Below are positions 2,303-61,436 of a stretch of 64,000 nt of DNA, one piece after another. The position numbers were made by a program, and so were the translations under genes. Position 1 is the stretch's first letter, and every line of letters starts with the position of its first letter. Under the pieces are notes generated by a model. That model did no database searches. It was given only the letters and a program-made list of their open reading frames with translations, and was not told the origin of the DNA. This DNA is from Rhodocyclaceae bacterium (GTDB lineage: Bacteria > Pseudomonadota > Gammaproteobacteria > Burkholderiales > Rhodocyclaceae), in contig JAVBYI010000004.1 in NCBI GenBank assembly GCA_030824115.1, positions 1 to 64,000 on the forward strand, given 5' to 3'.

Positions 2303-3164
2303 GGCGCATTACCGTACGCTTGAAGTCCTGATACCAGCCATACATTTGCCAGAAGACGGCCCCCGGTTGACCTGCCGTCTCGCCAGCGCCGACTTGTTGG
2401 CCATCGAGTGCGACGATGGGCAACACTTCCTTGGTGGACGAGGTCATCCACAACTCATCGGCGGCGCGCACTTCGGCATCGCTGATATCGCGCACCGCCG
2501 TTTTCAGGCCATGCGTGGCGGCGAGCTCCAGCACGACATCGTAGGTGATGCCGGTCAGCATCAGGTGGTTCTGCTGCGGTGCGAGCAACACGCCGTCCTT
2601 GACGACAAAGATGTTGGAGGCCGCCCCTTCGGTGAGGATGCCGTCGCGGAACAGGATCGTCTCGGCACAGTCGGCGTCGACGGCCATCTGGCGCAGCAGG
2701 CAGTTGGCGAGCAGCGAGGTGGCCTTGACGTGGCAGCGCAGCCAGCGGATGTCGGCGGTCGAGATGGCGCTGATGCCCTGTTCGCGCAACGCGGCAGGCG
2801 GCGTGTGCAGACTCTCGGCCAAGCAGAACACGGTCGGCGTGATCGTTGCCGGGAAAGCATGGTTGCGCACCGCCATCGGGCCGCGTGTCACTTGCAGCAG
2901 GAGCGAGCAGTCGTCGGCATCGAATTTGGCCACCAGCCGGCTGACCACCGCGTGCCATTGCGCGGACGAAAGCGGATTGGGGAGGCGAATCGCATCGAGG
3001 CTGCGTTGCAGGCGGCCGAGATGTTCGTCGAGGCGGAACGGGCGGCGCGAATAGACGGGGATGACTTCATACACGCCATCGCCGAACAGGAAGCCGCGAT
3101 CCATCGGCGAGATCGTTGCTGCGGCGAGTGGCTGAAACTCGCCATTGAGATAGCAGAGTGTCAT
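2295..3164 (-). CDS. dat: D-amino acid aminotransferase (class IV PLP aminotransferase)
   Basis: The 289-residue protein is a fold-type IV PLP aminotransferase of the D-alanine/D-glutamate type, which would supply D-amino acids for peptidoglycan. Typical segments are MDRGFLFGDGVYEVI at the start, the PLP-lysine region RCHVKATSLLAN, the cofactor-phosphate segment TEGAASNIFVV and TGIT. The gene lies directly before dacC, ybeD and lipB, an order common in betaproteobacteria, and its start overlaps the dacC stop by one base. Near the C-terminus the usual VGxGxPGPV stretch reads VGAGETAGQPGAV. That stretch is encoded by a copy of the dispersed 24 bp repeat (2374-2397). Branched-chain aminotransferase is the alternative call, but neighbours and motifs favour Dat. 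Confidence 0.88.
   Translation of the reverse strand: MTLCYLNGEFQPLAAATISPMDRGFLFGDGVYEVIPVYSRRPFRLDEHLGRLQRSLDAIRLPNPLSSAQWHAVVSRLVAKFDADDCSLLLQVTRGPMAVRNHAFPATITPTVFCLAESLHTPPAALREQGISAISTADIRWLRCHVKATSLLANCLLRQMAVDADCAETILFRDGILTEGAASNIFVVKDGVLLAPQQNHLMLTGITYDVVLELAATHGLKTAVRDISDAEVRAADELWMTSSTKEVLPIVALDGQQVGAGETAGQPGAVFWQMYGWYQDFKRTVMRHG
2374..2397 (-). repeat. Dispersed 24 bp repeat, copy inside dat
   Basis: On the plus strand this copy reads GCCGTCTCGCCAGC then GCCGACTTGT. In the dat frame it encodes V-G-A-G-E-T-A. The T-run is broken by one G, so it is a slightly degenerate member of the family described in the findings. Confidence 0.6.
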
Positions 3165-4297
3165 TATTGGAACCAGAGCTTGATGCTGTCCCAGGTGCGA
3201 CCGAGGAGGCCGGCCACGGGCACATCGGCAAGGGCAACCAGCGGCATCTCGGCAAACGGCTTGCCGTCGAGTGTGAGGATTAGCGTGGCCACCTTGTCGC
3301 CCTGGCGCACCGGGGCGATCAGCGGCTGCACGCTCTTCACTTCGGCCTTGAGGCGCTCACCAACGCTGGTCAGCCCTTTGGGCAGGGAGAAGATCAGATC
3401 CTGCGTGAAACCGGCGCCAACTGTCGATTGGGCGCCCTTGAAAATCTTCAGTTGCGACAAAGCCTGGCCCTTGTCGTAGAGCTTAACGGCATCGAAGGCG
3501 CGATAGCCGTAGTGGAGCAGGGCGAGGGTTTCCTGCACGCGCGCCTGGTCGGAGGCGGTGCCGAGGACGACGGCGGTGAGGCGGCGTGCGCCATCATGTT
3601 TCGAGGCGACGAGGCAGAAGCCGGCCGATTCGGTATGGCCGGTCTTGACGCCATCGATGGTCGGGTCGAGCCATAACAGGCGGTTGCGGTTGTACTGCTT
3701 GATCTTGTTGTAAACGAAATCCTTGACCGCGTAGTGCTTGTAATCCTCGGGGAAGTCACGGATCAGCGCGGAGGTCAGGCGTGCGAGGTCAGTCGGCGTG
3801 GTCAGGTGCGACGGGTCCGGCAGGCCGGTGGCATTGACGAAGTGCGTCTGCGTCAGGCCGAGGCGTTGCGCTTCGGCATTCATCATGCGCACAAAGGCTT
3901 CTTCATTGCCGGCAATCGCTTCAGCCATGGCGATGCTGGCATCGTTGCCGGACTGGATGATGATGCCCGAGAGGAGTTCGCTGACGGTGACCGGCTTCTT
4001 CGGTTCGATGAACATGCGTGAGCCGGGCGCCTTCCAGGCCTTCTCGGAAACCGGCACGACCTGATCGGGCTTGACCCGGCCATCGCGCAGCGCCGCGTAG
4101 GCGAGGTAGGAGGTCATGATCTTGGTCAGCGAAGCGGGCTCGACCTTCTGGTCAGCATTCTGTGCGGCGAGCACCTGGCCGCTGGCATGGTCGATCAACA
4201 GCCAGGCGCGGGCGGCGAGGACAGGTGGGGGTTCCTGGGCGATGGCAAGCGAACTGGCGGCGATCAGGAAAAGGAGCAGGGAACGAATGATTTTCAT
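3164..4297 (-). CDS. dacC: D-alanyl-D-alanine carboxypeptidase (low-molecular-weight PBP)
   Basis: This 377-residue serine DD-carboxypeptidase of the PBP5/PBP6 type trims the terminal D-alanine from peptidoglycan stem peptides in the periplasm. It has an N-terminal signal peptide (LLLFLIAASSLAIAQE). The three active-site motifs are SLTK (nucleophile about S57, K60), SGN in IIQSGNDAS (about residue 118) and KTG in DGVKTGHTESAG (about 222). The C-terminal part matches the PBP5 accessory domain and ends in WDSIKLWFQ, an amphipathic membrane anchor. It lies between rlpA and dat in the cell-wall run. The symbol could equally be dacA; the two are hard to separate by sequence alone. Confidence 0.95.
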   Translation of the reverse strand: MKIIRSLLLFLIAASSLAIAQEPPPVLAARAWLLIDHASGQVLAAQNADQKVEPASLTKIMTSYLAYAALRDGRVKPDQVVPVSEKAWKAPGSRMFIEPKKPVTVSELLSGIIIQSGNDASIAMAEAIAGNEEAFVRMMNAEAQRLGLTQTHFVNATGLPDPSHLTTPTDLARLTSALIRDFPEDYKHYAVKDFVYNKIKQYNRNRLLWLDPTIDGVKTGHTESAGFCLVASKHDGARRLTAVVLGTASDQARVQETLALLHYGYRAFDAVKLYDKGQALSQLKIFKGAQSTVGAGFTQDLIFSLPKGLTSVGERLKAEVKSVQPLIAPVRQGDKVATLILTLDGKPFAEMPLVALADVPVAGLLGRTWDSIKLWFQ

Positions 4298-4326
4298 TGG
4301 GCGGTCGGGGAGGATATTGTTATGGT

Positions 4327-5268
4327 TTATTTGACGAGGACAGAGGGTAAATCAAAAGCGGACTTGAGTTGCTCGGCCACGCGACGGGCTTCGGTGATAT
4401 CGGTCCAAGGGCCCAGTTGCAGGCGATGCAATGTGCCGCTGCTGCGGACCGCCAGCCGTTCACCCAGATCGCCCAGTTCGCGCGCCAGCTTGATTCTGAG
4501 CGACTCGGCATTGTCGCGGCTGCCGAAGGCGCCCAGTTGCAGATAGTGGCCGCCTTTTTCCTCGACATCGCGCAATACCGTCGGCGGCTCCTCGCGCGGT
4601 TTGTTTTCGGCAATCTGGGTGGGGGCGTGTTCGGGCAAGGGCGTGGCACCGGGCGCAACGCTTTCGACAACCACCCGGCCGCTGCCATTGTCGACCAGAC
4701 CGAGTTTCCACGCGGCGGTATAGGACAGGTCGATAACGCGATCGTGCAGGAAGGGGCCGCGATCATTGACGCGCACGGTGACGGTCTTGCCGGTGTCGGG
4801 ACCGCTGTTGATCCTGGTGACGCGCACGTAGGAGGGAATCGGCAGCGTCGGATGGGCGGCGGTCATGCCGAACATGTCGTAGGGTTCGCCGCTCGAGGTT
4901 TTCTGGCCGTGAAACTTGCGCCCGTACCAGCTGGCGATGCCTTCGCGCCGATACGGTGACCCCGGGGCCATCGGCACATAGTCGCGGCCAAGGACGGTGT
5001 AAGGTCGGTTGGCAAAGCGGTGTGGCGGCTCATGGCGCGGCTGTGCATCCGGCACACTGGCGAGGTCAACGGGAATGTGGTCGAGCGGACCATCGTCCTG
5101 ATAGAAGCCGCCGCCGCGCTTGAGGATGACGCCCGGCTTCTTTTCAGATGTCGGCGCTGGCGGGACGGCAGATGCCGGTGGAGAGCCGGCATCGACCACG
5201 GGTTTGGGTGCCTGCGTGCCGCAGGCGGCGAGCAGAAATGGAAGGAGCAGGACGGCAATCTTGTTCAT
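4327..5268 (-). CDS. rlpA: Septal ring lytic transglycosylase RlpA (lipoprotein)
   Basis: RlpA is an outer-membrane lipoprotein that cleaves peptide-free (denuded) glycan at division sites. The 313-residue product has a lipobox LLAACG at the signal peptide end. A double-psi beta-barrel domain starts near GIASWYGRKFHGQ and contains the catalytic-type TSSGEPYDMFGMTAAHP and VRVNDRGPF segments. A C-terminal SPOR domain (HYLQLGAFGSRDNAE onward) binds denuded glycan. Just after the lipid anchor, residues about 34-41 read AVPPAPTS and come from a copy of the dispersed 24 bp repeat. It overlaps the rodA stop by 4 bases, as in many proteobacterial mrdAB-rlpA-dacA operons. Confidence 0.95.
   Translation of the reverse strand: MNKIAVLLLPFLLAACGTQAPKPVVDAGSPPASAVPPAPTSEKKPGVILKRGGGFYQDDGPLDHIPVDLASVPDAQPRHEPPHRFANRPYTVLGRDYVPMAPGSPYRREGIASWYGRKFHGQKTSSGEPYDMFGMTAAHPTLPIPSYVRVTRINSGPDTGKTVTVRVNDRGPFLHDRVIDLSYTAAWKLGLVDNGSGRVVVESVAPGATPLPEHAPTQIAENKPREEPPTVLRDVEEKGGHYLQLGAFGSRDNAESLRIKLARELGDLGERLAVRSSGTLHRLQLGPWTDITEARRVAEQLKSAFDLPSVLVK
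5146..5169 (+). repeat. Dispersed 24 bp repeat, copy inside rlpA
   Basis: The plus strand reads AGATGTCGGCGCTGGC then GGGACGGC. The first four bases diverge from the AAAA of other copies. In the rlpA sense it encodes A-V-P-P-A-P-T-S in the Pro/Ala-rich linker after the lipid anchor. Confidence 0.75.
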
Positions 5269-8236: not shown

Positions 8237-8243
8237 GCGGCGA

Positions 8244-11297: not shown

Positions 11298-12748
11298 TCA
11301 ATGCTTCCCTGAAAGAACTCGCTGCTGCATTGGCAGAGAAAAAGATTTCCAGCGTCGAACTGACGACGCTGTTCCTTGACCGTATCGAACAGCACAACCC
11401 GAACCTCAATGCCTTCGTGACGGTTGATCGCGCGAGGGCGCTTGCTGCCGCGCACGCCGCAGATCAAAAAGTCGGCGCTGAGCGGACGGCACTGACAGGT
11501 ATTCCCCTTGCCCACAAGGACATCTTCTGCGCCGAAGGCTGGCGTACCACCTGCGGTTCGAAGATGCTCGGTAACTTTACGTCGCCCTACGATGCCCATG
11601 TTGTCGAGCAGATGAATGCGGCCGGCATGGTGACGCTGGGCAAGTGCAACATGGACGAGTTTGCGATGGGCTCGTCGAACGAAACCTCTTTCTTCGGCAC
11701 GGTGAGAAATCCGTGGGATACCGCTTGCGTGCCCGGCGGTTCCTCGGGTGGTTCGGCCGCCGCGATTGCTGCGCGTCTGGCACCGGCAGCGACCGGCACG
11801 GATACCGGCGGCTCGATCCGCCAGCCGGCCGCGCTGTGTGGTCTGACCGGCATCAAGCCGACCTATGGCGTGGTGTCGCGCTACGGCATGATCGCCTTTG
11901 CCTCCTCGCTCGATCAGGGCGGGCCGATGGCCAAGTCGGCCGAGGACTGCGCGTTGCTGCTGAATGCGATGGCTGGTTTCGATCCGCGCGATTCGACTTC
12001 GCTGGAACGTCCTGCTGAGGATTACTGCCGTGATCTGGACAAGCCGTTGGCTGGCTTGCGCATTGGGCTACCGAAGGAATTCTTTGGCGCCGGCATGGAC
12101 GATGGCGTGCGTGTGGTGGTCGAGGCCGCGCTGGCCGAATATCGCAAGCTGGGCGCCATTACCGTCGAGGTCTCGCTGCCCAATTCCGGCCTGTCGGTGC
12201 CCGCCTACTACGTGATCGCGCCGGCCGAAGCCAGCTCCAACCTGTCGCGTTTCGATGGCGTGCGTTATGGCCATCGTGCCGCTGACTACGGCGACCTCAA
12301 TGACATGTACGCGAAGAGCCGCGCCGAGGGGTTCGGCGATGAGGTCAAGCGCCGCATCCTGATCGGTGCCTACGTGCTTTCGCATGGCTATTACGACGCT
12401 TACTACCTCAAGGCGCAGAAGATTCGCCGTCTCATCGCCGCCGACTTTTCGACTGCCTTCAAGGATTGCGATGTGATCATGGGGCCGACGGCGCCCTCGG
12501 TGGCCTTCAAGTTTGGCGAAAAGAGCGCCGATCCGGTGCAGATGTATCTGTCCGACATCTACACGATTGCGGTCAACCTTGCCGGCCTGCCGGGCATGTC
12601 GATCCCTTGCGGTTTTGATCGCGATCTTCCCGTTGGCCTGCAACTGATCGGCCCCTGGTTCGGCGAGGCGCAGATGCTGAATGTGGCGCATCGCTACCAG
12701 CAGGCAACCGACTGGCATCGGCGCATGCCGGCTGCGTTTGCGGGATGA
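11294..12748 (+). CDS. gatA: Aspartyl/glutamyl-tRNA amidotransferase subunit A
   Basis: GatA is the glutaminase subunit that supplies ammonia to GatB. The 484-residue amidase shows the Ser-cisSer-Lys machinery: catalytic lysine in IPLAHKDIF, and serines in [11 protein letters not shown] and [12 protein letters not shown]. The MSIPCGF and GLQLIGPWF segments near the end are also typical. Residues 59-66 (KVGAERTA), just ahead of [10 protein letters not shown], are encoded by a copy of the dispersed 24 bp repeat. They sit in a surface region that varies between species. The gene overlaps gatC and the following lipoprotein gene by 4 bases each. Confidence 0.97.
11467..11490 (+). repeat. Dispersed 24 bp repeat, copy inside gatA
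   Basis: Reads AAAAGTCGGCGCTGAG then CGGACGGC. It differs from the consensus only in the variable core, and in gatA encodes K-V-G-A-E-R-T-A. Confidence 0.75.
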
Positions 12749-13279: not shown

Positions 13280-14725
13280 ATGACGTGGGAAGTCGTGATT
13301 GGGCTGGAAACGCATGCCCAACTGCAAACAAAATCAAAAATCTTTTCCGGTGCCAGTACGGCCTTCGGCGCCGAACCGAATCGTCAGGCCTGCGCGGTTG
13401 ATATCGCGCTGCCCGGCGTGCTGCCGGTGCTCAACCGCGAAGCGGTGGTTTGCGCGATCAAGTTCGGCCTCGCCATTGGTGCAGAGATTGCGCCGCGCTC
13501 GATCTTCGCGCGCAAGAACTACTTCTACCCTGACCTGCCGAAGGGCTACCAGATCAGCCAGTTCGAGATTCCCGTCGTGTCGGGTGGCGGGCTGACCATC
13601 ACTGTCGGCGCTGGCGAGACGGCCTATGAGAAGTTCGTGCATCTGACGCGCGCCCATCTCGAAGAGGATGCCGGCAAGTCGCTGCATGAGGATTTCCACG
13701 GCAAGACCGGCATCGATCTGAACCGTGCTGGCACGCCGTTGCTGGAGATCGTCACCGAGCCTGATATGTGCTCCAGTACCGAAGCGGTCGCCTATGCCAA
13801 GGCGCTGCACTCGCTGGTGACATGGATCGGCATTTGCGACGGCAACATGCAGGAAGGCAGTTTCCGCTGCGACGCCAACGTGTCGGTACGTCGTCCCGGT
13901 GCTCCGCTTGGCACGCGCCGCGAGATCAAGAATCTCAACTCCTTCCGCTTCCTGCAGCAGGCCATCGACTACGAGATTCAATGGCAGATCAACGAGATCG
14001 AGGAGGGCCGCAAGATTCAGCAGGCCACCGTGCTGTTCGATCCCGACACGGGCGAGACGCGTTCGATGCGCAGCAAGGAAGATGCGCACGACTACCGCTA
14101 CTTCCCCGACCCTGATTTGCTGCCGCTCGAGATCAAGGCCGACTGGATTGCCGAAGTGAAAGCAGGCTTGCCCGAGTTGCCGCAAGCTATGCAGGCACGC
14201 TTTCAGTCGGATTACGGCCTGTCGGCCTACGATGCCGCAACACTGGCAGTCACGCGTTCTAGCGCACAGTTTTTCGAGGAAACCGTCAACGTTGCTGGCA
14301 AGGAGAATGCGAAGGCTTGTGCCAACTGGGTGATGGGCGAACTGGCGGCACGCCTGAACCGTGACGAGAAAGACATCTCGGCCAGCCCGATTGCTGCGGC
14401 GCAACTGGCTGGCATGGTCAAACGCATCGCCGACGGCACCCTGTCCTCCAAGCTCGCCAAGGAAGTGTTTGAAGCGCTATGGAGCGGTGAGGGCCAGGAC
14501 GCTGATGCGATCATCGAAGCGCGCGGTCTCAAGCAGGTTTCCGATGCGTCAGCAATCGAACCGATCATTGACGAGGTACTGGCCGCCAACCCGAAGTCGG
14601 TCGAGGAATTCCGTGCTGGCAAGGACAAGGCTTTTAATGCACTGGTCGGTCAGATCATGAAAGCGACCAAAGGCAAAGCCAACCCGCAGCAGGTGAATGA
14701 GCTGCTGAAGAGGAAGCTGAGTTAA
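13280..14725 (+). CDS. gatB: Aspartyl/glutamyl-tRNA amidotransferase subunit B
   Basis: GatB is the kinase and amidotransferase subunit that binds the mischarged tRNA. The 481-residue protein opens with the signature [20 protein letters not shown]. It carries [16 protein letters not shown], the conserved DFNRAG-type stretch ([19 protein letters not shown]) and [17 protein letters not shown]-terminal YqeY/GatB tail domain (from about residue 330) ends in [13 protein letters not shown]. Length is standard. A 24 bp repeat copy begins directly behind the TAA stop. Confidence 0.97.
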
Positions 14726-14748
14726 AAAGTCGGCGTTGGCAGGACGGC
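14725..14748 (+). repeat. Dispersed 24 bp repeat, intergenic copy after gatB
   Basis: Reads AAAAGTCGGCGTTGGC then AGGACGGC, starting on the last base of the gatB TAA. It fills the 22-base gap between two convergent genes, and its last C is the final base of the convergent gene's stop codon. This copy is in a non-coding position, so protein selection cannot explain it. Confidence 0.85.
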
Positions 14749-18203: not shown

Positions 18204-19635
18204 TCTCGAGGTATTCCTCAATGCCGTACTTTGAGCCTTCGCGGCCAATGCCCGAATGCTTGATGCCGCCAAAGGGTGCCACTTCGTTGGCGATCAGCCC
18301 GACATTCACGCCCACCATGCCGTATTCGAGCGCTTCGGCGACCCGCCAGACGCGCGACAGATCACGCGCATAGAAGTAGCTCGCCAAACCGTATTCGGTG
18401 GCGTTGGCCAGGGCAATTGCCTCGGCTTCATCGTGAAACTTGAACAGCGGCGCGACCGGCCCGAAGGTCTCCTCGCGGGCGCAGCGCATGGCGGGCGTCA
18501 CGTCTGCCAGCACGGTGGGTTCGAAGAAGGTGCCGCCCAGTGCGTGGCGTTTGCCACCCGTCAGGATGCGGGCGCCTTGCGCTACGGCATCGGCGACGTG
18601 GGCTTCAACCTTTGCCAGCGCCTGCACATCAATCAGCGGACCTTGGTTGACCCCTGCCGTCGTGCCAGCGCCGACATTTAGTTTTGCCACCTCGGCGGCC
18701 AGCTTCTGCGCGAATGTTTCATAGATGCCGGCCTGTATCAGCAACCGGTTGGCACACACGCAGGTTTGGCCGGCATTGCGGTATTTGGACGCCATCGCGC
18801 CGGCGACGGCGGCATCGACATCTGCATCGTCGAAGACGATAAAGGGGGCATTGCCGCCGAGCTCCAGTGAAATCTTTTTCAGCGTTGGCGCACATTGCGC
18901 CATCAGCAGCCGGCCGACCTCGGTCGAACCGGTGAAGGAGAGTTTGCGCACGACCGGGTTGCCGGTCAGCTCGCCGCCGATCAGTGGGGCATTTGCCGCC
19001 GAACTGGTGATGATATTGAAGACGCCAGGTGGGAAGCCGGCGCGCTCGGCAAGTGCAGCCAATGCCAACGCGGTGAGTGGTGTCTGTTCGGCGGGCTTGA
19101 CCACCACCGGACAGCCGGCTGCCAGCGCTGGCGCCACCTTGCGCGTGATCATCGCGGCGGGGAAGTTCCAGGGCGTAATCGCAGCACAGACGCCGATCGG
19201 TTGCTTGAGGACGAGCAGTCGCTGATTGGCGATGGTCTGTGGAATCACGTCACCGTAGGTGCGCTTGGCTTCCTCGGCAAACCATTCAATGAAACTGGCC
19301 GCATAGAGTGCCTCGCCGCGTGCTTCGGCGAGTGGTTTGCCCTGCTCGCTGGTCATCAGCAGGGCGAGGTCGTTGGCATGCGTGACGATCAGTTCGAACC
19401 ACTGGCGCAGGATGCCGCCGCGCTGCTTGGCCGTGAGGGCTCGCCAGGCCGGCCAGGCGGCATTGGCCGCGGCGATGGCGCGGCGTGTTTCCACTGCCGC
19501 CATGTCGGGCACCTCGGCCAGCGCTTCGCCCGTGGCGGGGTTGGTGATGGTCAGCGTGGCGCCGTTCTCGGCACTGCACCACTGGCCGTCGATAAAGGCG
19601 CGGTCGCGCAACAATTCGGGATGCTGCAATTGCAT
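18178..19635 (-). CDS. gabD: Succinate-semialdehyde dehydrogenase, NADP-type
   Basis: This 485-residue aldehyde dehydrogenase closely fits GabD, which oxidises succinate semialdehyde to succinate. Motifs are [23 protein letters not shown] (cofactor and substrate site), FTGSTEVGR, the catalytic glutamate in LELGGNAPF and catalytic cysteine in [21 protein letters not shown] and a C-terminal [25 protein letters not shown] complete the pattern. The usual LxVGDGLxEG turn reads [10 protein letters not shown] here, encoded by a copy of the dispersed repeat. No gabT lies nearby, so 4-aminobutyrate breakdown would depend on genes elsewhere. Confidence 0.92.
   Translation of the reverse strand: [485 protein letters not shown]
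18656..18679 (-). repeat. Dispersed 24 bp repeat, copy inside gabD
   Basis: The plus strand reads GCCGTCGTGCCAGC then GCCGACATTT. In the gabD sense it encodes N-V-G-A-G-T-T-A within a loop preceding the GPLI segment. Confidence 0.7.
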
Positions 19636-22776: not shown

Positions 22777-22778
22777 CC

Positions 22779-32183: not shown

Positions 32184-32855
32184 TCAGGAAAGGTAAAGTT
32201 GATGGTCTTGAATATAGTCGAGAACCGGCGCGGGTAGCAATGTCAGAAGCTGCGCCGGGGGATGGTGGGCAGCAATGCGCTGCCGTACTTCGGTGGCCGA
32301 GACGGTGCCGGCGATCAGTTCAAAAGGAAAAATGTGGCCGAATGGTCTCGAAAAGTCGGCGCTGGCGAGACGGCGCTTGGCGAATTCTCCGGCCAGTGGT
32401 TCTTCGAAACCCTCAAGCGGAAAGCCTGGGCGGGTCGCCACGGCAAGATGCGCAAGGCTGAAGATGTCCTGCCAGCGGTGCCAGCGGGCAAAGCCGTGAA
32501 AGGCATCGGCGCCCATCAGCAGCACCAGCGGACGTTGCGGGCCGAGTTCGCGCCGCAGCCGTTCGAGCGTATGCACGGTGTAGCTGGGCGCTTCGCTATT
32601 GACCTCGCTGGCGTCAAGCACAAAGCCAGGTTCACCGTCGATGGTCGCCTGCACCATCGCCAGCCGGTCAGTCGGTGTGCTGCGGGGGGCGGTTTGGGCG
32701 TCGGTGCGATGCGGTGGCTGGCCGGCGGGAATCCAGCGTATTTCGGGAATCTTCAGATGGTCGCGGGCGGCGCGGGCCAGGGCGAGGTGGGCGAGATGAA
32801 CCGGGTCGAAGGTGCCGCCGAGGATGCCGACCGGGCTAAACGCTTTCATCAACAC
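32184..32855 (-). CDS. nadD: Nicotinate-mononucleotide adenylyltransferase
   Basis: NadD makes nicotinate adenine dinucleotide from NaMN and ATP in NAD synthesis. The 223-residue protein has the nucleotidyltransferase motif GILGGTFDPVHLAHL, the substrate loop IRWIPAGQPPHR, and the second ATP motif (S)ATEVRQRIA near the end. ATGs at 32855 and 32849 are both possible starts. It overlaps the upstream membrane-protein gene by 20 bases. Residues about 161-168 (RLASADFS) come from a dispersed 24 bp repeat in a frame different from the other coding copies. Confidence 0.95.
   Translation of the reverse strand: MLMKAFSPVGILGGTFDPVHLAHLALARAARDHLKIPEIRWIPAGQPPHRTDAQTAPRSTPTDRLAMVQATIDGEPGFVLDASEVNSEAPSYTVHTLERLRRELGPQRPLVLLMGADAFHGFARWHRWQDIFSLAHLAVATRPGFPLEGFEEPLAGEFAKRRLASADFSRPFGHIFPFELIAGTVSATEVRQRIAAHHPPAQLLTLLPAPVLDYIQDHQLYLS
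32351..32374 (+). repeat. Dispersed 24 bp repeat, copy inside nadD
   Basis: Reads AAAAGTCGGCGCTGGC then GAGACGGC. With flanks it matches the copy upstream of hemL at 29 of 30 positions (32346-32375 against 45431-45460). In nadD it is read as R-L-A-S-A-D-F-S. Confidence 0.9.
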
Positions 32856-44122: not shown

Positions 44123-44146
44123 GCCGTCCTGCCAGCGCCGACTTTT
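44123..44146 (-). repeat. Dispersed 24 bp repeat, intergenic copy after hemL
   Basis: The plus strand reads GCCGTCCTGCCAGC then GCCGACTTTT. It almost fills the 28-base gap between the hemL stop (44145-44147, inside the T-run) and the GGDEF-EAL start at 44116. Read on the minus strand, the AGGACGG part could act as ribosome-binding site for the downstream gene. Confidence 0.9.
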
Positions 44147-45435: not shown

Positions 45436-45459
45436 AAAAGTCGGCGCTGGCAAGACGGC
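45436..45459 (+). repeat. Dispersed 24 bp repeat, intergenic copy before hemL
   Basis: Reads AAAAGTCGGCGCTGGC then AAGACGGC in the 49-base gap between thiE and hemL. It is opposite in orientation to the copy after hemL. The 30 bases 45431-45460 match the nadD copy at 29 positions. Confidence 0.92.
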
Positions 45460-46134: not shown

Positions 46135-46975
46135 GGGCAACCTCCGCAGACGCAAGAGAATGGGATGACGGGCTTTGCCACTGGCGGTTGGGGATGTGCT
46201 GTCCCATGCCGGGACGGAAGCCTGCCGCCAGACTGTGCCAGGTGTAGTGCTGGGCCGCGCGCACCGCCTCGGGCAGCGGCTGCCCCCAGGCGAGGTTGGC
46301 CGCGATGGCCGAGGCCAGCGTGCAGCCCGAGCCGTGGTAGCTGCCGGGCAGGCGCTCCCACTCGTCGTGGCGCACGGGGCCATGCGATCCATAGAGGGTA
46401 TTGACGACGCGCGCCGAATGTTCGTGCGTGCCGGTGACCAGTACATGCGCACAGCCGGCACCGACCAGCAGGCGGGCACATTCGGGCAGCGTGACCGTCT
46501 CGCCAGCACCGACCTCTTGTGCCAAGCGTCGTGCTTCCATGCTGTTCGGTGTCAGGACATCGGTAAGCGGCATGATCAGTTCGAGCATGGCGGCAATGAT
46601 GTCTTCATCGGCAAAGGCATCGCCGCGACCGGAAGCCAGCACCGGGTCGAACACCACCGGCGTGTCGGGATAGTCGGAGAGCACTTCAGCGACGGCGGCA
46701 ATCGCCTCGACGCTGCCGAGCAGGCCGAGCTTGAAGGCGGCCACCGGCATGTCTTCCAGCAACGCCCGCGCCTGGTCGGCGACCCAGCCCCCTTCCATCG
46801 GCAGGAGGTCCTCGACACCGACGGTGTCCTGCACCGTCAGGGCGGTCACCACCGTCAGCGGGTGGCAGCCGTGGGCGGCAATGGTCAGCAGGTCGGCCTG
46901 CAGGCCGGCCCCGCAGGTAGGGTCGGACGCGGCAAACGAGAGGACGGCAGGCGGATTAAAACGTGAAGATGGCAT
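46118..46975 (-). CDS. thiD: Hydroxymethylpyrimidine/phosphomethylpyrimidine kinase
   Basis: ThiD phosphorylates HMP and HMP-phosphate, feeding ThiE. From ATG 46975 the ribokinase-fold protein has 285 residues with FAASDPTCGAGLQADLLT, VVTALTVQDT, VVFDPVLASGRG, LTPNSMEARRL and the anion-hole/catalytic GSGCTLASAIAANLA. The sequence VGAGETVTLP (about residues 154-163) is a weak, possibly chance, match to the dispersed repeat. No thiamine riboswitch was recognised in the 111 bases before it, which are shared with divergent pilG. Confidence 0.94.
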   Translation of the reverse strand: MPSSRFNPPAVLSFAASDPTCGAGLQADLLTIAAHGCHPLTVVTALTVQDTVGVEDLLPMEGGWVADQARALLEDMPVAAFKLGLLGSVEAIAAVAEVLSDYPDTPVVFDPVLASGRGDAFADEDIIAAMLELIMPLTDVLTPNSMEARRLAQEVGAGETVTLPECARLLVGAGCAHVLVTGTHEHSARVVNTLYGSHGPVRHDEWERLPGSYHGSGCTLASAIAANLAWGQPLPEAVRAAQHYTWHSLAAGFRPGMGQHIPNRQWQSPSSHSLASAEVAHVIAV

Positions 46976-50135: not shown

Positions 50136-53100
50136 ATGACTGCCCCCGCTTTCGATACCGGTACGCTGTCCTGGGTCAAGGACGAGATCGACCTCGCCCT
50201 TGAGCGGGCGGGTGCGGCGCTATCGCGCCATGCCGCAGCGCCCGACAATCCGGCGACGCTCAACGAGGCGCGCAGCCATTTGCATCAGGCCTGCGGCGCC
50301 CTGACGCTGGTCGGTCTGGCGGGTGTCACACACTGTGCCGAGACGGTCGAAACGCATCTGGCTACGCTGGCCGAACTTGTCGTGGAGACGAATGTGGTGG
50401 CGGTCACTGCGGCGGCTGGTGCCGCCTTGTCCGCCCTGCGCCGTTACCTCGACGACCTGATGGCCGGCCATCCCGACCAGCCGTTGCGCTTGTATCCGGC
50501 CTATCGCGGGCTGGCACTGGCGGCGGGTCAGGCCGCACCCTCACCGCTGGTGCTGTTCCAACCCGATCTCGGCCTGCGTCCGCCGCGTCGCGAGGCGACC
50601 AGCGAACTGCCACCGGTCCGTCTGAAGGCCTTGCGCCTCGGCTTTGCGCGCGGCTTTGCCAAGTGGCGTGCGGGTGAAGCACGCGGCCTGACGGAAATGA
50701 AGAATGCCCTGGTCATCCTCGAACAGAGTCTTGCCGATCCGGGCGAGCGCGTGCCATGGTGGGTGGCGCTGGCATGGTTCGAGGCGCTGGAGGGCGGTGC
50801 CGAACCTCAGGATGAACTGTTGGCAGGCCTGGACCAGTTGTTTGCCGAGCTTGCCGACGGCAAGACCGGTACACCGCCTGAATTGTTGATGAAGGGCCTG
50901 CTGTACGCCATTGCCACTGCCCCGCCGGGCGGTGAGCAACTGGAGAGCGTACGCGCCGCCTATCGCCTGGCCGATCTGCTGCCGGCGGAGGATGCCGGGG
51001 GCGAAACCCGTCGTGAGGCCTGTCGTGCGCCGCTGACCACGGCGATGGAGGAATGGGAACGCTTCAGTCAGGGCCAGGCGATTGCGCTGATGCGCTTTCA
51101 CGATGTCGTGCAACTGCTGGCGGCCACCGCCAATGAAAGCAACGACCCGACCCTGGCGCAACTGGTCGGCACGATTGCCGCCTTTGCGGTTTGGTTGCGC
51201 CAGCAGCCGGAACGCGCCGACGCCCGGCTGGCGCTCGATGTCGCCGGTGCGCTGGTGCTGGTCGAGGAAGTCATCGAGAGTGAAGGCCTGCGCAGTCCCG
51301 CAGATGAGGCCATGTTTGCGGCGGCCGTCCAGCAGCAGAGCGATCATCTCGACGCACTCAAGCCACAGGACGTCACGCCGCCACCGTTAGAGCGACTGCT
51401 CTGGCGCGAGCGCCAGTTGCAGGCGCAGGTGGCTGCGGAAATCCGCCGCAACCTCGATGCGCTGGAAGCCTTACTGGAGCCCTGCTTTCAGCCGCCGGGT
51501 CAGGCCATCCCGGCCAAGGCGCAGGAGCTGTTGCATCAGGTGGCCGGTGCTTTCGAACTGCTCGATGCGCGCGAGGCGGCAAGTGTCGCCACGGCAACGA
51601 CGCACCTGCTGAGCAAAGCAGGCGGTGCGGATAGCGCTGCGCTTGCGGCCCACCATCTGACGGCACTGGCCCAATACACCGATGCCTTGCAACATGGCCC
51701 GGCGGCAGTCGATGTGCTGTTGCCGCTGCTGGAAGCGGCAGAGACGGTCGCTCCCGCCGCAGCCATGCCGGCACCGCTGCCAGCGCCGGTTGTTGCGATG
51801 CAGGCGGGTGACGATGAAATGCTCGACATTTTCATCGAGGAAGCGCAGGAAGTGCTGCAAACCCTCGCCGCCGCCGTGCCCGCCCTCAAGGCCAATCCGG
51901 CCGACCGCGAGGCACTGACGACAGTGCGTCGCGCCTATCACACGCTCAAGGGCAGCGGCCGCATGGTCGGGTTGATGGAACTGGGCGAGGCTGCCTTCGC
52001 CGTTGAAAAGCAGCTCAACCAGCGCCTCGACGAACGCCTGCCGGTTGACGCCGGCTTGATGGCGACCATCGATGCGGCGGGCGAACGCTTTGCCGCCTGG
52101 ATTGCCGAACTTGAATCAAAGCGTGCGGATGCCGTCCTGCCAGCGCCGACATTTGCCGCAGCGCCTGCAACACCCGAACCCCCCGTCACGATTGGCGAAC
52201 TCACGCTGTCGCCGATGCTCTACCAGCTCTATGTCGAGGAAGCCGGCACGCATGTGGTCACCTTGCGCCAGGAGTTGTCCGGCCCGGCCGGCATTCCCTC
52301 GCGTGAACTGATTCGTGCGGCGCACACCCTGGCCGGCATTTCTGCCGGCACCGGCTTCCCCTCCGTGCAGGCGCTGGCCCATGCGCTGGAGAATGTGCTG
52401 GTACGGCACTCCCTCGCACACGTGGTGCCGGATGACGATGCACGCATGCTGGTCGCCCGTGCTGCCGGTGCGCTGCAGGGCATGGTCGGCGCGATTACGG
52501 AGCGGCGTGCGCCGGCCGCTGAACCGGAACTGGCCGCCACGCTGGAAGCCCATCAGCCCGCTACGCCAGTAGTGGCGGAATCGCTACCGGTTTCGCCGTT
52601 GGCTGAGCGTCGCACGTCGCGCCCGGCCGATGAGGTCGATCCCCAACTGGCGCCTCTGTTCCTCGAAGAGGCCGACGAGCAGCTGCACCAGCTCGATGCC
52701 GATTTGCGCGCCTGGCGCGAAGCGCCTCAGGACAAAGAAATCGGCCGACGCATGGCGCGCCTGCTGCACACCTTCAAGGGCGGCGCGCGCATGTGTGGCG
52801 CGATGGGGATTGGTGAACTGGCGCACAGCATGGAAACGCGCATCGAGCAGGCGCTGTCCGTCGGTGGCGTGGCGCCGGATGTGCTGGATGGCCTCGATAC
52901 CTCGCTTGGCCGCGCCCTCAGTCTGGTGGCTGCCTTGCGTCCCGGCGCCAAGCATGAAGAAACGGTCGGCGGGGTACCTGTGCCAGCCGTTGCTGAAACA
53001 GCACCCAGCCAACCACCAACCGAAAGCAGTGCTGCTGGCGCGCAAGTCCTGTTGCGCGTGCGCGCCGACCTGATCGACCGCCTCGTCAGCGAAGCGGGCG

Positions 53101-54851
53101 AAATGGCGATTACGCGCGGCCGTGTCGAAGGCAGCCTCAAGGACATCAAGGGTGGCCTGCTCGATCTGGCCGACAACATCGTGCGCCTGCGTTCGCAACT
53201 GCGCGAGTTCGAGATCCACGCCGAGACCAGCATGCAGTCGCGCCTTGGCGGCAGCGTGATGGGCGCCGATGGTCATCAGCGCGATTTCGATCCGCTGGAG
53301 CTTGATCGTTTTACGCGTCTGCAAGAGCTGACGCGCATGCTGGCGGAAAGCGTTAATGACGTCTCCACCCTGCAACATGGCCTGTTGCGGCAGGCCGACG
53401 GCGCTGGCGAGGCACTGGTGATCCAGTCGCGCCAGCAGCGCGAACTGGCGCATGCGTTGCTGCGCGCGCGCATGGTGCCGTTTACCACGGTGGCCGAACG
53501 GCTGCATCGCGTGGTGCGCCAGACCGCCAAGGAACTCGCTCGTCAGGCCAACCTCGATATTCGCGGTGGCGATACCCCCGTCGATCGCAACGTCCTCGAA
53601 CGCATGCTCGGCCCGCTCGAACATCTGCTGCGCAATGCGGTGGCCCACGGTATCGAAGCACCAGAGCAGCGCCAGGCCGCCGGCAAGGCGGAACTTGGCC
53701 AGATCGTTCTGACCATCCTTTCCACCGACAACGACATCACACTGCGCCTGCAGGACGACGGCAAGGGCCTCGACTACACGGCGATTCGCCAGCGTGCCAG
53801 CGAACGCGGCCTGCTGACAGCAGACGGACCGATGGAGAATGCGCAACTGGCCGAGCTGATCTTTCGCCCCGGTTTTTCCACGGCCGCCAGCGTCAGCGAA
53901 ATCGCCGGGCGCGGTGTCGGCCTCGATGTCGTGCGCGACGAAGTCACACAACTCGGCGGGCAGGTTGCCGTGGGGGGCGCGGCCGGCCACGGCACCTATT
54001 TCGAAATCGTTTTGCCGCTGACGCTGGCGGTGATTCCCGTCATGCTCGTCGAAGCCGCCGGACAGCGCTGGGCGATCCCCGCCACCATGGTCGAGGAAGC
54101 GCGTGAACTGGATGCCGCAGAAGCGGCGGCCCGCGAGGCGGCCGGTGCGGTCACGCGCAACGGCCTGCGCTATCCGTGGCACACACTGCCGCAACTGTTC
54201 CGCATGGCCGACACGGGCGCGGCGCCTGCCTGGCAGTTGTTGCTCAAGCATGGCGGCATGCAGGTGGCGCTGGCGGTCGAGGCGCTGACGCAGAATCAGG
54301 AAGTCGTCGTCAAGCCGCTCGGCGAACAGTTGCAGCACGTGCCCGGACTGGCCGGCGCGACCGTGCTGCCGGATGGCCGCGTGGCATTGATCATCAACCC
54401 GGTGACACTGGCACAGCGCCTGGGCAATGCCGTCTTACCAGCGCCGACATTTGCAAGTGCCACCACGCTCAGGGCCGCTCCGGCCACCACTGTCATGGTC
54501 GTCGACGATTCCCTCACCGTGCGCAAGATCACCAGCCGTCTGCTGGAACGCGCCGGCTATCGCGTCGCCACGGCCAAGGATGGCGAGGATGCCCTCGCGC
54601 AGATCATGCAGCAGCGCCCCGACGTGATCCTCGCCGACATCGAAATGCCGCGCATGGATGGCTTTGAACTCGTTCGCCACCTGCGTGCCGCCCCGCAATT
54701 CGCTAGCCTGCCGGTGATCATGATCACCTCGCGCATCGCCGACAAGCACCGTCAGGTGGCGCTGGAACTGGGCGTACAACATTACCTCGGCAAGCCCTAC
54801 GACGAGGATCAGTTGCTGGCGTTGATCGCTACCCTCACGAGGGCCGCATGA
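50136..54851 (+). CDS. pilL: Hybrid chemosensory histidine kinase PilL/ChpA
   Basis: This 1571-residue CheA-type kinase drives PilG/PilH. From the start there are two degenerate Hpt-like modules (HQACGAL near residue 50, HQVAGAF near 467). Three better Hpt modules follow, with histidines at 602 (HTLKGSGRMVGL), 730 (HTLAGISAGTGF) and 878 (HTFKGGARMCG). Then come a dimerisation segment (RADLIDRLVSEAGEM), the ATP-binding domain (LLRNAVAHGIEAPEQR near 1163, DDGKGLD, GRGVGLDVVRDEV), a CheW domain and a C-terminal receiver with phospho-Asp in ADIEMPRMDG near 1501. Copies of the dispersed repeat encode AVLPAPTFA linkers at about 666 and 1432, both at domain boundaries. Neighbouring pilK and chpB are absent. 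Confidence 0.96.
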   Translation: MTAPAFDTGTLSWVKDEIDLALERAGAALSRHAAAPDNPATLNEARSHLHQACGALTLVGLAGVTHCAETVETHLATLAELVVETNVVAVTAAAGAALSALRRYLDDLMAGHPDQPLRLYPAYRGLALAAGQAAPSPLVLFQPDLGLRPPRREATSELPPVRLKALRLGFARGFAKWRAGEARGLTEMKNALVILEQSLADPGERVPWWVALAWFEALEGGAEPQDELLAGLDQLFAELADGKTGTPPELLMKGLLYAIATAPPGGEQLESVRAAYRLADLLPAEDAGGETRREACRAPLTTAMEEWERFSQGQAIALMRFHDVVQLLAATANESNDPTLAQLVGTIAAFAVWLRQQPERADARLALDVAGALVLVEEVIESEGLRSPADEAMFAAAVQQQSDHLDALKPQDVTPPPLERLLWRERQLQAQVAAEIRRNLDALEALLEPCFQPPGQAIPAKAQELLHQVAGAFELLDAREAASVATATTHLLSKAGGADSAALAAHHLTALAQYTDALQHGPAAVDVLLPLLEAAETVAPAAAMPAPLPAPVVAMQAGDDEMLDIFIEEAQEVLQTLAAAVPALKANPADREALTTVRRAYHTLKGSGRMVGLMELGEAAFAVEKQLNQRLDERLPVDAGLMATIDAAGERFAAWIAELESKRADAVLPAPTFAAAPATPEPPVTIGELTLSPMLYQLYVEEAGTHVVTLRQELSGPAGIPSRELIRAAHTLAGISAGTGFPSVQALAHALENVLVRHSLAHVVPDDDARMLVARAAGALQGMVGAITERRAPAAEPELAATLEAHQPATPVVAESLPVSPLAERRTSRPADEVDPQLAPLFLEEADEQLHQLDADLRAWREAPQDKEIGRRMARLLHTFKGGARMCGAMGIGELAHSMETRIEQALSVGGVAPDVLDGLDTSLGRALSLVAALRPGAKHEETVGGVPVPAVAETAPSQPPTESSAAGAQVLLRVRADLIDRLVSEAGEMAITRGRVEGSLKDIKGGLLDLADNIVRLRSQLREFEIHAETSMQSRLGGSVMGADGHQRDFDPLELDRFTRLQELTRMLAESVNDVSTLQHGLLRQADGAGEALVIQSRQQRELAHALLRARMVPFTTVAERLHRVVRQTAKELARQANLDIRGGDTPVDRNVLERMLGPLEHLLRNAVAHGIEAPEQRQAAGKAELGQIVLTILSTDNDITLRLQDDGKGLDYTAIRQRASERGLLTADGPMENAQLAELIFRPGFSTAASVSEIAGRGVGLDVVRDEVTQLGGQVAVGGAAGHGTYFEIVLPLTLAVIPVMLVEAAGQRWAIPATMVEEARELDAAEAAAREAAGAVTRNGLRYPWHTLPQLFRMADTGAAPAWQLLLKHGGMQVALAVEALTQNQEVVVKPLGEQLQHVPGLAGATVLPDGRVALIINPVTLAQRLGNAVLPAPTFASATTLRAAPATTVMVVDDSLTVRKITSRLLERAGYRVATAKDGEDALAQIMQQRPDVILADIEMPRMDGFELVRHLRAAPQFASLPVIMITSRIADKHRQVALELGVQHYLGKPYDEDQLLALIATLTRAA
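52131..52154 (-). repeat. Dispersed 24 bp repeat, first copy inside pilL
   Basis: The plus strand reads GCCGTCCTGCCAGC then GCCGACATTT. It encodes A-V-L-P-A-P-T-F between the Hpt modules at H602 and H730. Confidence 0.88.
54429..54452 (-). repeat. Dispersed 24 bp repeat, second copy inside pilL
   Basis: The plus strand reads GCCGTCTTACCAGC then GCCGACATTT. It encodes A-V-L-P-A-P-T-F between the CheW and receiver domains. The peptide is identical to that of the first pilL copy although the codons differ at the Leu and Pro. Confidence 0.88.
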
Positions 54852-55330: not shown

Positions 55331-56717
55331 GCCGACCGTAGCGCGCCAGCGTCTTTTCCCGCGCCACCGCATGATCGACAACGGGTGCGGGATAGTCGGC
55401 CGGCGGTTTTGGCATCTTCCACGGCGCATGAATGAACTTGTCCGGCACGCCCGCCAGTTCCGGCACATAGCGCCGGATGAACTGGCCCTGCGGATCGAAA
55501 CGCGCCGACTGCGTCACCGGATTGAAGATGCGGAAGTACGGTTGCGCATCGCAGCCGGTCGAGGCGGCCCACTGCCAGCCACCGTTATTCGCAGCCAGAT
55601 CGTAATCGAGTAGCCATGTAGCGAAATGCGCTTCGCCGCGCCGCCAGTCGATCCCCAGATCCTTGGTGAGAAACGAAGCCGACACCATGCGCAGGCGATT
55701 GTGCATCCAGCCGCTTTGCAGCAACTGGCGCTGCGCGGCATCGACCAGCGGATAGCCGGTGCGGCCCTGCTGCCACGCGGCGAATAACTCGGGCGCATCA
55801 TCCCAGACGAGCGCATCGTACTCGGGCTTGAAACTGTGATGCACCACATCCGGGCGATGCCAGAGAACCTGTTGGTAAAACTCGCGCCAGATCAACTCAT
55901 TGAGCCAGACCTCCGCGCCGCGCCCCCCTTGTGATGGAGGCTGCAGGCTTTCGGCATGCGCGGCGGCGACCAGCTGGCGGATCGACACCGTGCCGAAACG
56001 CAGATGCGGCGAGAGGTACGAACATCCTTTGACGGCCGGAAAGTCGCGCGCCTCGTGATAGCGCTCGATGCGCGTGAGGAAATCCTCGAACAGTTGCGCG
56101 CCGCCGTGCATGCCGCTCGGCACCTTGAGATCGGTCCCCTCAAAGCCGAGATCGGCCAGTGCTGGAAAAGTCGGCGCTGGCGGGACGGCAAGCTGCCCCG
56201 GCTGCGCCGTACAGTTGTACGCCGCAAGGTCAGCAGGAGACAACTTGGTTCGCCAGGCGCGGCTGTAAGGCGTGAAGACTGAAAACGGCGTACCGGTTTT
56301 CGTCAGCACCTCATCACGCTCGAAAATCACCTGATCCTTGCAGTCGATAAAGCCACGCCCGTCCGCCGTCAGTTGTGCCGCGACAAGCGCATCACGCTCG
56401 CGTGCCGCCGGCTCATAGTCGCGGTTGGCATAAACCGCCATCACATCAAGCTGAGCCGCCAGTTGCGGAATTTCCTCAACCGCGCGGCCATGACGAACAA
56501 TCAACCCGCCACCCTTGGCCCGCAACGCCGCATCAAGCTCGACCAGCGAACGATGAATGAAATTGACGCGCCGATCCTCGCGTGGCAACGGCATCAGGAT
56601 GTCGGTATCGAAGACAAACGCGCAATACACCCGCGCGTGTTCGCGCAAGGCAGCAGCCAGCGCAGTATGGTCAAAATCTCGCAGGTCGCGGCGGAACCAG
56701 ACGAGGGCGGATGTCAT
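55311..56717 (-). CDS. phrB: Deoxyribodipyrimidine photolyase (class I)
   Basis: Photolyase splits cyclobutane pyrimidine dimers using light, FAD and an antenna cofactor. The 468-residue protein opens with ALVWFRRDLRDFDHTALAAA. The FAD domain carries LSPHLRFGTVSIRQL, WLNELIWREFYQQVLWH, YPLVDAAQRQLLQSGWMHNRLRM and the C-terminal WQWAASTGCDAQPYFRIFNP, all quoted in part. Residues about 177-184 (AVPPAPTF) are encoded by a dispersed repeat, in the inter-domain linker region. It overlaps the upstream DUF3616-like gene by 4 bases. Confidence 0.96.
   Translation of the reverse strand: MTSALVWFRRDLRDFDHTALAAALREHARVYCAFVFDTDILMPLPREDRRVNFIHRSLVELDAALRAKGGGLIVRHGRAVEEIPQLAAQLDVMAVYANRDYEPAARERDALVAAQLTADGRGFIDCKDQVIFERDEVLTKTGTPFSVFTPYSRAWRTKLSPADLAAYNCTAQPGQLAVPPAPTFPALADLGFEGTDLKVPSGMHGGAQLFEDFLTRIERYHEARDFPAVKGCSYLSPHLRFGTVSIRQLVAAAHAESLQPPSQGGRGAEVWLNELIWREFYQQVLWHRPDVVHHSFKPEYDALVWDDAPELFAAWQQGRTGYPLVDAAQRQLLQSGWMHNRLRMVSASFLTKDLGIDWRRGEAHFATWLLDYDLAANNGGWQWAASTGCDAQPYFRIFNPVTQSARFDPQGQFIRRYVPELAGVPDKFIHAPWKMPKPPADYPAPVVDHAVAREKTLARYGRLKDRPT
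56166..56189 (+). repeat. Dispersed 24 bp repeat, copy inside phrB
   Basis: Reads AAAAGTCGGCGCTGGC then GGGACGGC. In the photolyase sense it encodes A-V-P-P-A-P-T-F. Confidence 0.9.
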
Positions 56718-60150: not shown

Positions 60151-61436
60151 AGATCGCGATTCAACACGGCCGCGTCATCGATCCGGCCAGCGGGCTCGAC
60201 CAGCCGACCAATGTGTATGTTGCTGACGGCAAAATTGTCGGCGTTGGCGAGACGGCCCCTGGCGGCTTCCGCGCCGAAGGTGTACTGGATGCCAGCGGCT
60301 GCATCGTCTGCCCCGGCCTGATCGACCTCTCGGCGCGCCTGCGCGAACCGGGCTTCGAATACCGTGCCACGCTCGAATCCGAAATGGCCGCTGCCGCTGC
60401 CGGTGGCGTGACGCGCCTGGTCTGCCCACCGGATACCGATCCGCCGCTGGATGAGCCGGGTCTGGTCGAGATGCTCAAGCATCGCGCCCGCCAGCCGGGG
60501 TTTGCCCATGTGCATCCGATGGGGGCCTTGACCATTGGCCTCGCCGGGCAGCGACTGACCGAGATGGCGGAACTGGCCGAGGCCGGTTGCATTGCCTTCG
60601 GCCAGGCCAATCACAGCATCATCGATACCCAGGTGCTGATGCGCGCCATGCAGTACGCGGCGACGTTTGGCTTCAGCGTCTGGCTGCAACCGCAGGATGC
60701 GCACCTCGCCAAGGGTGGTGTCGCCCATGAGGGGGCGGTGTCGGCGCGCCTCGGCTTGGCCGGCATCCCGGTAATCGCCGAAACGGTGGCGTTGTCGACT
60801 TACTTGCAACTGGCGCGCGAAACCGGCGTGCGCCTGCACATCCGCCGTCTCTCCTCGGCGGCTGGGCTGGCGCTGATTCGTGCAGCGCGCGCCGACGGGC
60901 TGGCGGTGACCTGCGATGTGACGATCAATCACATTCATTTGTGCGACGACCACATCGGCTTCTTCAACCCGCACACCCGCCTCGATCCGCCCTTGCGCAG
61001 TGCAATGGACCGCGATGCGCTGGCGGCCGGGCTGGCCGATGGCAGTATCGATGTGCTCTGTTCCGATCACACCCCCGTGGATGACGATGCGAAACAGGTG
61101 CCGTTTGCCGAAGCCGAGACCGGCGCCACCGGGCTGGAACTGCTGCTGCCGCTAACCCTGCAATGGGCGGCCGATCATGGCGTGCCGCTGCCCAGGGCGT
61201 TGGCCCGCATCACCGCCGATCCCGCCCGCATCCTTGGCCTTGATCGTGGCTGCATCAAGCCGGGCGTGCCGGCCGACTTGTGCGTTTTCGATCCGCAGGG
61301 CAGTCATACCGTCAGCCGCGAACGACTCAAGAGCCAGGGCAAGAACACGCCCTTCCTTGGCCGCCAACTGGCCGGCGAGGTGCGTTACACGCTGATCGAC
61401 GGCCACATGGCCTACTCGGCGGATCGCCTGCTGTGA
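60147..61436 (+). CDS. pyrX: Non-catalytic dihydroorotase-like protein PyrC' (PyrX)
   Basis: The 429-residue protein has the amidohydrolase fold of class I dihydroorotases but lacks its metal site. At the place of the HxH metal pair it reads [13 protein letters not shown] (S62 and R64), and HIRRLSS replaces the second histidine pattern (H231 kept, R234 in place of His). SDHTP (D307, H308) remains. This matches the inactive PyrC' of Pseudomonas, which is needed structurally for PyrB. It overlaps pyrB by 4 bases. A functional pyrC must be elsewhere. The segment IVGVGETAP early in the protein weakly matches the dispersed repeat. Confidence 0.93.

Follow-up and report, generated by a model that had tools for sequence, protein, structure and literature searches.

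A dispersed 25-bp two-block repeat of the Rhodocyclaceae as a candidate DNA uptake sequence

Introduction

The DNA uptake sequence (DUS) of the Neisseriaceae and the uptake signal sequence (USS) of the Pasteurellaceae are, in the available portion of PMC12616744, the only systems known to discriminate DNA by a word repeated through the genome, and the copies of both run to thousands according to the accessible text of PMC3630211. Here, we describe a short repeat in the Rhodocyclaceae which, judging from its sequence and distribution, is probably a DNA uptake sequence. The repeat was noticed in a stretch of 64,000 nucleotides from a Rhodocyclaceae bacterium (assembly GCA_030824115.1, contig JAVBYI010000004.1, positions 1 to 64,000), the whole of which is called the window below. 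The genome of the window is designated G000, and the analysis was extended to this genome and its relatives.

The available excerpts of the cited papers describe the neisserial DUS as 97% conserved, compared with an aligned average of about 85%, and as located in slightly more divergent, permissive regions. It is missing from gained or lost regions, often arises by recombination and not by point mutation, and is found mostly between genes (PMC2397512). The Neisseriaceae have DUS dialects (PMC3630211), and acquired islands can be recognised by their lack of the resident DUS (PMC7371117). The USS is described, again in excerpt, as genome-wide, with several positions fixed across its dialects and with an extended consensus longer than the core (PMC12616744).

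The repeat described here resembles the DUS, as far as these excerpts portray it, in its many copies, its conservation above the surroundings, its permissive sites, its scarcity in islands and its dialects between genera. It differs in being a 25-bp word of two blocks, whereas the DUS has 10-12 bp, and in its lower copy number (384 exact copies versus thousands). Most copies here are genic, whereas those of the neisserial DUS are mostly intergenic. Also unlike the DUS, for which ComP is the receptor, no inverted pair within 120 bases was found among 89 copies of G000 and 104 copies of a second genome, G011, and a canonical ComEA was not found. With the USS, to the extent of the same excerpt, the repeat shares the genome-wide spread, several positions fixed across dialects and a consensus that extends past the core; it differs in belonging to another class of Proteobacteria and in being G+C-rich. 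Repetitive extragenic palindromic sequences and bacterial interspersed mosaic elements (REP/BIME) are imperfect palindromes. The repeat is likewise short, dispersed and present in many copies, but unlike REP/BIME it has no stable fold, is mostly genic, is conserved above its flanks and has dialects.

The known words themselves were not enriched in these genomes. Eight DUS dialect 12-mers occurred in 0 to 1 copies each per 400-424 kb of G011 and G000, and the 9-mers of Hin-USS and Apl-USS in 0 to 1 copies on the same lengths, compared with about 3 expected. Kinship to the Neisseria DUS through the heptamer TGCCGTC, shared in one orientation, was considered and set aside, since most other dialects read CGCCGT at that place and the DUS 12-mers are absent. 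No description of a Rhodocyclaceae repeat of this kind was found in the open-licence literature, as judged from titles and abstract openings.

Results

A two-block word repeated throughout the genome

The assembly of G000 comprises 2,999,174 bases in 24 contigs and is 92% complete. The exact 20-base core, GTCGGCGCTGGCNNGACGGC, occurs 384 times in it, 185 times forward and 199 times in reverse, and the reversed control pattern gave 0 matches across the whole genome. The two outcomes named as refuting a preliminary description, made from the letters of the window, were counts at background level and a restriction to the window; neither was observed. Within the window, 18 copies were counted at three or fewer mismatches, where 0.34 were expected, and none of 100 dinucleotide shuffles reached 18. 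About 13 copies had been listed before; all of these lie at the coordinates and on the strands given for them, and five more have to be added.

Further features were taken from a 424-kb set, i.e., the window plus 360 kb of contig C1 of G000, and 400 kb of contig C52 of G011 were used for comparison. The 424-kb set contained 94 copies at up to three mismatches (43, 34, 12 and 5 copies with 0, 1, 2 and 3 mismatches, respectively). Shuffled patterns gave 1.45 matches at three mismatches and none at fewer, and the reversed pattern gave three at three mismatches and one at two. A profile iterated on the same 424 kb found 217 sites per Mb.

The logo of the 94 copies reads AAA(A/T)GTCGGCGCTGGC-RR-GACGGC, followed by A in 59%. 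Its edges are sharp, with the information at background level beyond the unit on both sides. Whereas a 24-bp word was first proposed, the unit extends from AAA(A/T) on the 5' side to the preferred A after GACGGC and has 25 bp. Four variable bases had been assumed between the fixed ends. Only positions 13-14 are free, being mostly A or G, and the two bases preceding them are 84-86% fixed. The word consists of two end blocks, AAA.TC and (A/G)CGGC, around a centre that is specific to the lineage.

Folding of the consensus gave a z-score of 0.29, no better than shuffles, which supports the earlier statement that the repeat lacks a palindrome of the REP/BIME type, and the window had no Rfam match at gathering scores. 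With these two results an RNA element was ruled out. A composition artefact was ruled out by the shuffle and reversed-pattern controls in the window, the genome and the relatives, and a protein-level repeat by the use of several reading frames and both strands.

The 18 copies in the window are as follows.

2374..2397, minus strand: exact core, sense in a class IV aminotransferase gene; the same site is occupied in G011.
5146..5169, plus strand: exact core, antisense in a gene with DPBB and SPOR domains.
11467..11490, plus strand: two mismatches, in a length-variable stretch of the amidase-family gene beside gatB (presumably GatA); other genera have versions nearby.
13600..13623, plus strand: exact core, newly found, in gatB; absent in G011, which is 12 bases shorter there.
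14725..14748, plus strand: one mismatch; the gatB stop codon ends within its A-run.
18656..18679, minus strand: exact core, sense in an aldehyde dehydrogenase gene; conserved in G011.
27252..27275, plus strand: two mismatches, antisense near the start of a gene for 1553 amino acids with a TPS domain.
32351..32374, plus strand: exact core, antisense in a cytidylyltransferase-like gene; the G011 version has one mismatch.
35640..35663, minus strand: one mismatch, antisense in a gene for a DNA polymerase of family A.
36796..36819, minus strand: one mismatch, newly found, antisense in the same polymerase gene as the copy at 35640.
37954..37977, minus strand: two mismatches, newly found, sense in a gene with a MacB/FtsX domain.
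44123..44146, minus strand: exact core, straddling a gene edge.
45436..45459, plus strand: exact core, intergenic; the aligned place in G011 has no motif.
46494..46517, minus strand: degenerate with two mismatches, newly found, sense in a phosphomethylpyrimidine kinase gene.
52131..52154, minus strand: exact core, antisense in a gene for 1571 amino acids with Hpt, HATPase, CheW and receiver domains; in G011 the motif is inverted at this place.
54429..54452, minus strand: one mismatch, antisense in the same 1571-amino-acid gene as the copy at 52131.
56166..56189, plus strand: exact core, antisense in a DNA photolyase gene.
60233..60256, plus strand: one mismatch, absent from the earlier list of starts, sense in an amidohydrolase gene; conserved in G011.

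The protein of 1553 amino acids is encoded at 22779-27440 of the window, and its TPS secretion domain is of the type of two-partner secretion exoproteins.

Conservation at orthologous sites

Alignment to G011 was obtained for 54 of the 94 G000 copies, and 40 were without alignment. The motif is present within three mismatches at 46 of the 54 sites (33 ungapped, 13 with gaps nearby) and absent at eight. Three of these eight are ungapped, and the other five have gaps that vary in length; at one of the five, G011 has a longer form of the repeat. In the reverse direction, 56 of 118 G011 copies could be aligned to G000, 47 with the motif and nine without. Where the motif was absent, the gap measured 12, 19 or 39 bases, or there was none. 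The comparison of occupied and empty orthologues that had been suggested for recognising an insert thus gave a mixed picture, with most aligned sites occupied and no single gap length at the empty ones.

Exact copies with an orthologous alignment numbered 25 of 43 in G000 and 19 of 40 in G011, each being chosen as exact in one genome only. All 18 fixed positions were identical at the orthologue for 12 of the 25 and 14 of the 19 copies, whereas windows shifted at the same loci were fully identical in 9.0% of 300 cases for G000 and 5.7% of 228 for G011. The flanks of the exact copies were 80-84% identical, below the mean of 86% for 198 random aligned 20-mers. At two places, i.e., the copy at 52131 of the window in the CheA-like gene and that at 188119 of G000 contig C1, the motif has opposite orientations in G000 and G011. 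Versions of the motif at shifted offsets are found in further genera, several in number, within the variable stretch of the GatA-type amidase gene. Copies are thus kept or regained at permissive places whatever their orientation, which fits a signal at the DNA level.

A rarer form of 47 bases was also seen, in which a 27-base insert (TGACCGAAGGGAATCCC...CGGGA, hairpin-like by eye) stands within the core. It lies near position 125710 of G000 contig C1 (minus strand) and near position 183868 of G011 contig C52 (plus strand), to be compared with positions 168935 of the latter contig and 313874 of the former; at both of these aligned sites, a short form in one genome faces a long form in the other.

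Placement in genes, islands and along the chromosome

Gene coordinates were obtained from our own crude codon-score calls. By these calls, 73 of the 94 copies in the 424-kb set are genic, 40 of them in sense and 33 in antisense. A further 15 copies lie between genes and six across a gene edge, so that 21 copies are outside genes or across edges on DNA that is 10.5% non-coding (P = 0.001). The corresponding numbers in the 400 kb of G011 are 86 genic, 24 intergenic and eight edge copies out of 118, with 7.4% non-coding DNA (P = 9e-11). In the window, the earlier count of three copies in gaps out of 13 holds under the same crude calls, with those at 14725 and 44123 straddling a gene edge and that at 45436 being intergenic. 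Inside genes two frames dominate, KVGAG.T in sense and AV.PAPTF in antisense. Outside them, the copies favour the ends of genes: 13 of the 21 non-genic or edge copies in G000 overlap a gene 3' end or are at most 12 bases away from it, compared with 18.7% of random non-coding places (P 1.5e-5), and 17 of 31 do so in G011, compared with 26.5% (P 8e-4).

Three gaps of more than 18 kb between copies (at most two mismatches) were found in the 424 kb of G000. One motif-poor stretch, at 73351-115285 of contig C1, has a G+C content of 0.57 and encodes a Mu-type transposase, TniB, the Wadjet protein JetA and an AcrB-type efflux protein. A second region at 240278-309664 of the same contig includes two motif-poor gaps with G+C contents of 0.52 and 0.50; its genes encode glycosyltransferases, a protein of the UDP-GlcNAc 2-epimerase family, an aminotransferase and an LdpA-domain protein of the ferredoxin type. 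The Pfam scan of the motif-poor stretches covered 18 proteins, three of which had no match. Strictly inside the two regions lie one of 89 copies at up to two mismatches and three of 94 at up to three, compared with 23 expected from their length, a count to be read with the caveat that the ends of the gaps are set by the copies themselves. When this part of G000 was divided into 2-kb bins by G+C content, bins below 56% held two copies in 100 kb, those of 56-60% 12 in 78 kb, those of 60-64% 62 in 194 kb and those above 64% 12 in 50 kb. The motif is thus scarce in two island-like regions of one genome, whose horizontal acquisition is judged from G+C and gene content.

The largest gap in the 400 kb of G011 was 18 kb, and the spacing there was more even than random (coefficient of variation 0.79, P 0.005). 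A contig of 2.56 Mb from a further genome, G001, carries 63 exact copies that are uniformly spread (Kolmogorov-Smirnov P 0.95). The orientation bias about origin and terminus that had been put forward for checking did not appear: no strand switch point was found on the stretches of G001, G000 and G011 (P 0.33, 0.75 and 0.54, respectively), two of which have about 0.4 Mb, the origins not being located.

Dialects and distribution in relatives

Sixty relatives were scanned with the exact core. It is present in 17 of the 18 other genomes of the genus, in 2 to 392 copies. Outside the genus, two genera of the family have 101 and 120 copies, and the controls gave 0 in all 60 relatives. In two genomes poor in the exact core, counting of k-mers with no seed revealed other words of the same length as that of G000, AAACTCGGCGCtGGCGGGGCGGCG in G016 and aAAAGTCAGTCcC.gCgacACGGCG in G028. 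Iterated profiles, for which a pattern covering three dialects served as seed, gave 186-282 sites per Mb, with differing centres, in eight of the ten genomes modelled; no model was obtained for G005 and G033, with 100 kb each.

The same dialect-wide pattern, built on three dialects, was used for counting; since it prescribes both end blocks, further dialects would escape it, here as in the profiles. By hand count, at least 20 matches to this pattern were found in 68 of 395 genomes of the family, which belong to eight of 68 genera, and all other genomes had at most 15. The reversed control did not exceed five in any of the 395. In an order-wide sample of 399 genomes including G000, only four reached 20 matches, all of them Rhodocyclaceae, and none of the 386 sampled genomes outside the family had more than eight.

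In a gatB tree of 51 rows (50 of 80 gatB loci plus the window), the 16 rows with at least 20 copies fall in one set of 25 rows with support 99/97, which includes rows of Sulfuritalea, Sulfurisoma and Rugosibacter. Presence of the motif requires seven changes on this tree, compared with 13.8 in shuffles, and none of 500 shuffles was as low. This distribution fits, but does not prove, a single origin that may have been followed by losses and dialect shifts. One row, L074, apparently from the genome G005 discussed below, has a very long branch in the tree.

Searches beyond chromosomes gave the motif in 93 stretches of viral contigs, and the 80 listed include 78 with no more than two copies each. 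The viral contig L254 has five exact copies at 883-2238, the first four at a spacing of 316 bases. Plasmids gave weak matches in 28 records, with E values of 0.07 or worse among the 15 rows listed.

Competence genes

ComEC and DprA were each found in 18 of the 19 genomes of the genus. The ComEC of G000 has Competence, DUF4131 and Lactamase_B domains over 772 amino acids. A pilin of 142 amino acids in G000 matches the ComP_DUS family (E 1.3e-11) and adjoins another pilin-like open reading frame (ORF). Matches to this family exceed the cut-off in 53 of 61 genomes, G000 included, whether or not they carry the motif, and the family was therefore rejected as a marker of motif carriers. Below the cut-off, the search for ComEA gave weak matches in an ORF of 234 amino acids in G001 and one of 382 amino acids in G009.

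At about 107479-109047 of G016 contig C4 (7479-9047 of locus L342), comEC is matched in a shortened frame of 522 or 537 amino acids in which the start of the domain is missing. G016 has two exact copies of the core. Loss of ComEC as the cause of motif loss was considered and rejected, because G016 has another dialect at full density.

Discussion

We favour a DNA uptake sequence as the explanation of this repeat because of the genome-wide counts, the conservation at orthologous sites, the scarcity in island-like stretches, the dialects and the even spacing in one of three genomes. The preliminary description had left the choice between an uptake sequence and the site of a chromosome-organising protein; the sequence-level features fit the former, and the latter is the main rival, as weighed below. 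With somewhat less assurance, but still on the favourable side, we suggest that it belongs to a third, independently arisen uptake-sequence system outside the Neisseriaceae and Pasteurellaceae, located in the Sulfuritalea-Sulfurisoma-Rugosibacter clade, with a two-block 25-bp word in dialects and a putative receptor, and possibly without a canonical ComEA.

Under such a system, an outer-membrane or type IV pilus receptor, probably a minor pilin, would recognise and bind the 25-bp word and would act in DNA uptake. Free DNA of the own lineage bearing the word would enter preferentially and then recombine. Copies would accumulate and persist through biased uptake together with selection or drive, since word-bearing fragments would more often be taken up and recombined. 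Those that arise by mutation or recombination would persist at harmless places, such as variable stretches and positions just past stop codons, in either orientation, recently acquired DNA would stay poor in them, and the word would drift together with its receptor into dialects.

Several results weigh against an uptake sequence. The placement is mostly genic (73 of 94 copies), unlike that of the neisserial DUS. The spacing in G000 is clumped (coefficient of variation 1.42), which we ascribe to the island-like stretches, and that on the G001 contig is indistinguishable from random (P 0.29). At the eight of 54 aligned sites without the motif the gaps are varied or lacking, so that point mutation may not be the only source of the copies, and identity is as low as 71-78% in some of the G000/G011 alignments, which may pair paralogues. 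ComP_DUS, ComEC and DprA are also present in motif-free relatives, and the search revealed no gene whose presence follows that of the motif. A genome of the same genus, G005, has both ComEC and DprA but 0 exact copies and one dialect match; loss of the system there is possible. As for ComEA, the TIGR00426 cut-off was reached in 0 of the 19 genomes of the genus, and PF12836 was over its cut-off in 15 of 19, always in ORFs of 620 to 1723 amino acids that are far beyond the size of a ComEA and presumably Tex-like. The failure to find a short ComEA over the cut-offs either argues against the textbook uptake route or indicates another periplasmic partner.

In the main rival explanation, the word is bound by a chromosome-organising or nucleoid-associated protein, with sites evenly spread and used in either orientation. 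The even spacing in G011, the uniform spread in G001, the lack of an orientation preference and the conserved sites would all suit such a site, and newly acquired islands would at first be free of it, too. However, Chi and the FtsK-orienting polar sequences (KOPS) are biased in orientation about origin and terminus, and the repeat, with no strand bias on three stretches whose origins were not located and no clustering on the G001 contig, is unlike KOPS, Chi, MatS and parS. This fits Chi, KOPS and ter-type sites poorly but does not speak against every organising protein. The site of an essential organiser would hardly be expected to be lost patchily or to change its dialect between relatives, and we regard this explanation as unlikely. 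A mark of self that is read by a recombination or defence nuclease in the manner of Chi, and not by an uptake machine, would likewise be enriched in own DNA and rare in island-like stretches; sites of the Chi type are short and orientation-biased, whereas the repeat has 25 bp and no orientation bias, which makes such a mark very unlikely.

The empty sites of G011, where 12, 19 or 39 bases are missing, the sharp edges and the rarer longer form with its 27-base insert could also be expected of a short selfish repeat family mobilised by a transposase or reverse transcriptase acting in trans and tolerated in genes. Against it, no fixed insert length was seen (target duplications were not searched systematically), the consensus has no hairpin, and the copies are conserved above their flanks. 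Moreover, hundreds of copies differ in step between lineages, which points to sequence-specific recognition, and we give little credence to a selfish family. The dominance of two reading frames within genes might suggest a by-product of codon usage or base composition. The controls refute this, with no reversed match in the genome and no dinucleotide shuffle reaching the count, and the occurrence on both strands, in several frames and between genes speaks against it as well, leaving it next to no probability.

If the repeat is indeed a third uptake-sequence system, with losses and dialect changes within one family and even within one genus, it would demonstrate a repeated origin of this trait. 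The group would then offer replicate evolution for the question, raised in the accessible part of PMC2397512, of whether such sequences reflect selfish drive or 'safe sex'. The word would also serve as a filter for acquired islands in these genomes. A word of 25 letters, present in hundreds of copies per genome in environmental bacteria, resembles a password of "self" for DNA uptake, and it would predict natural transformability of a group known largely from metagenomes, which would open these bacteria to genetics.

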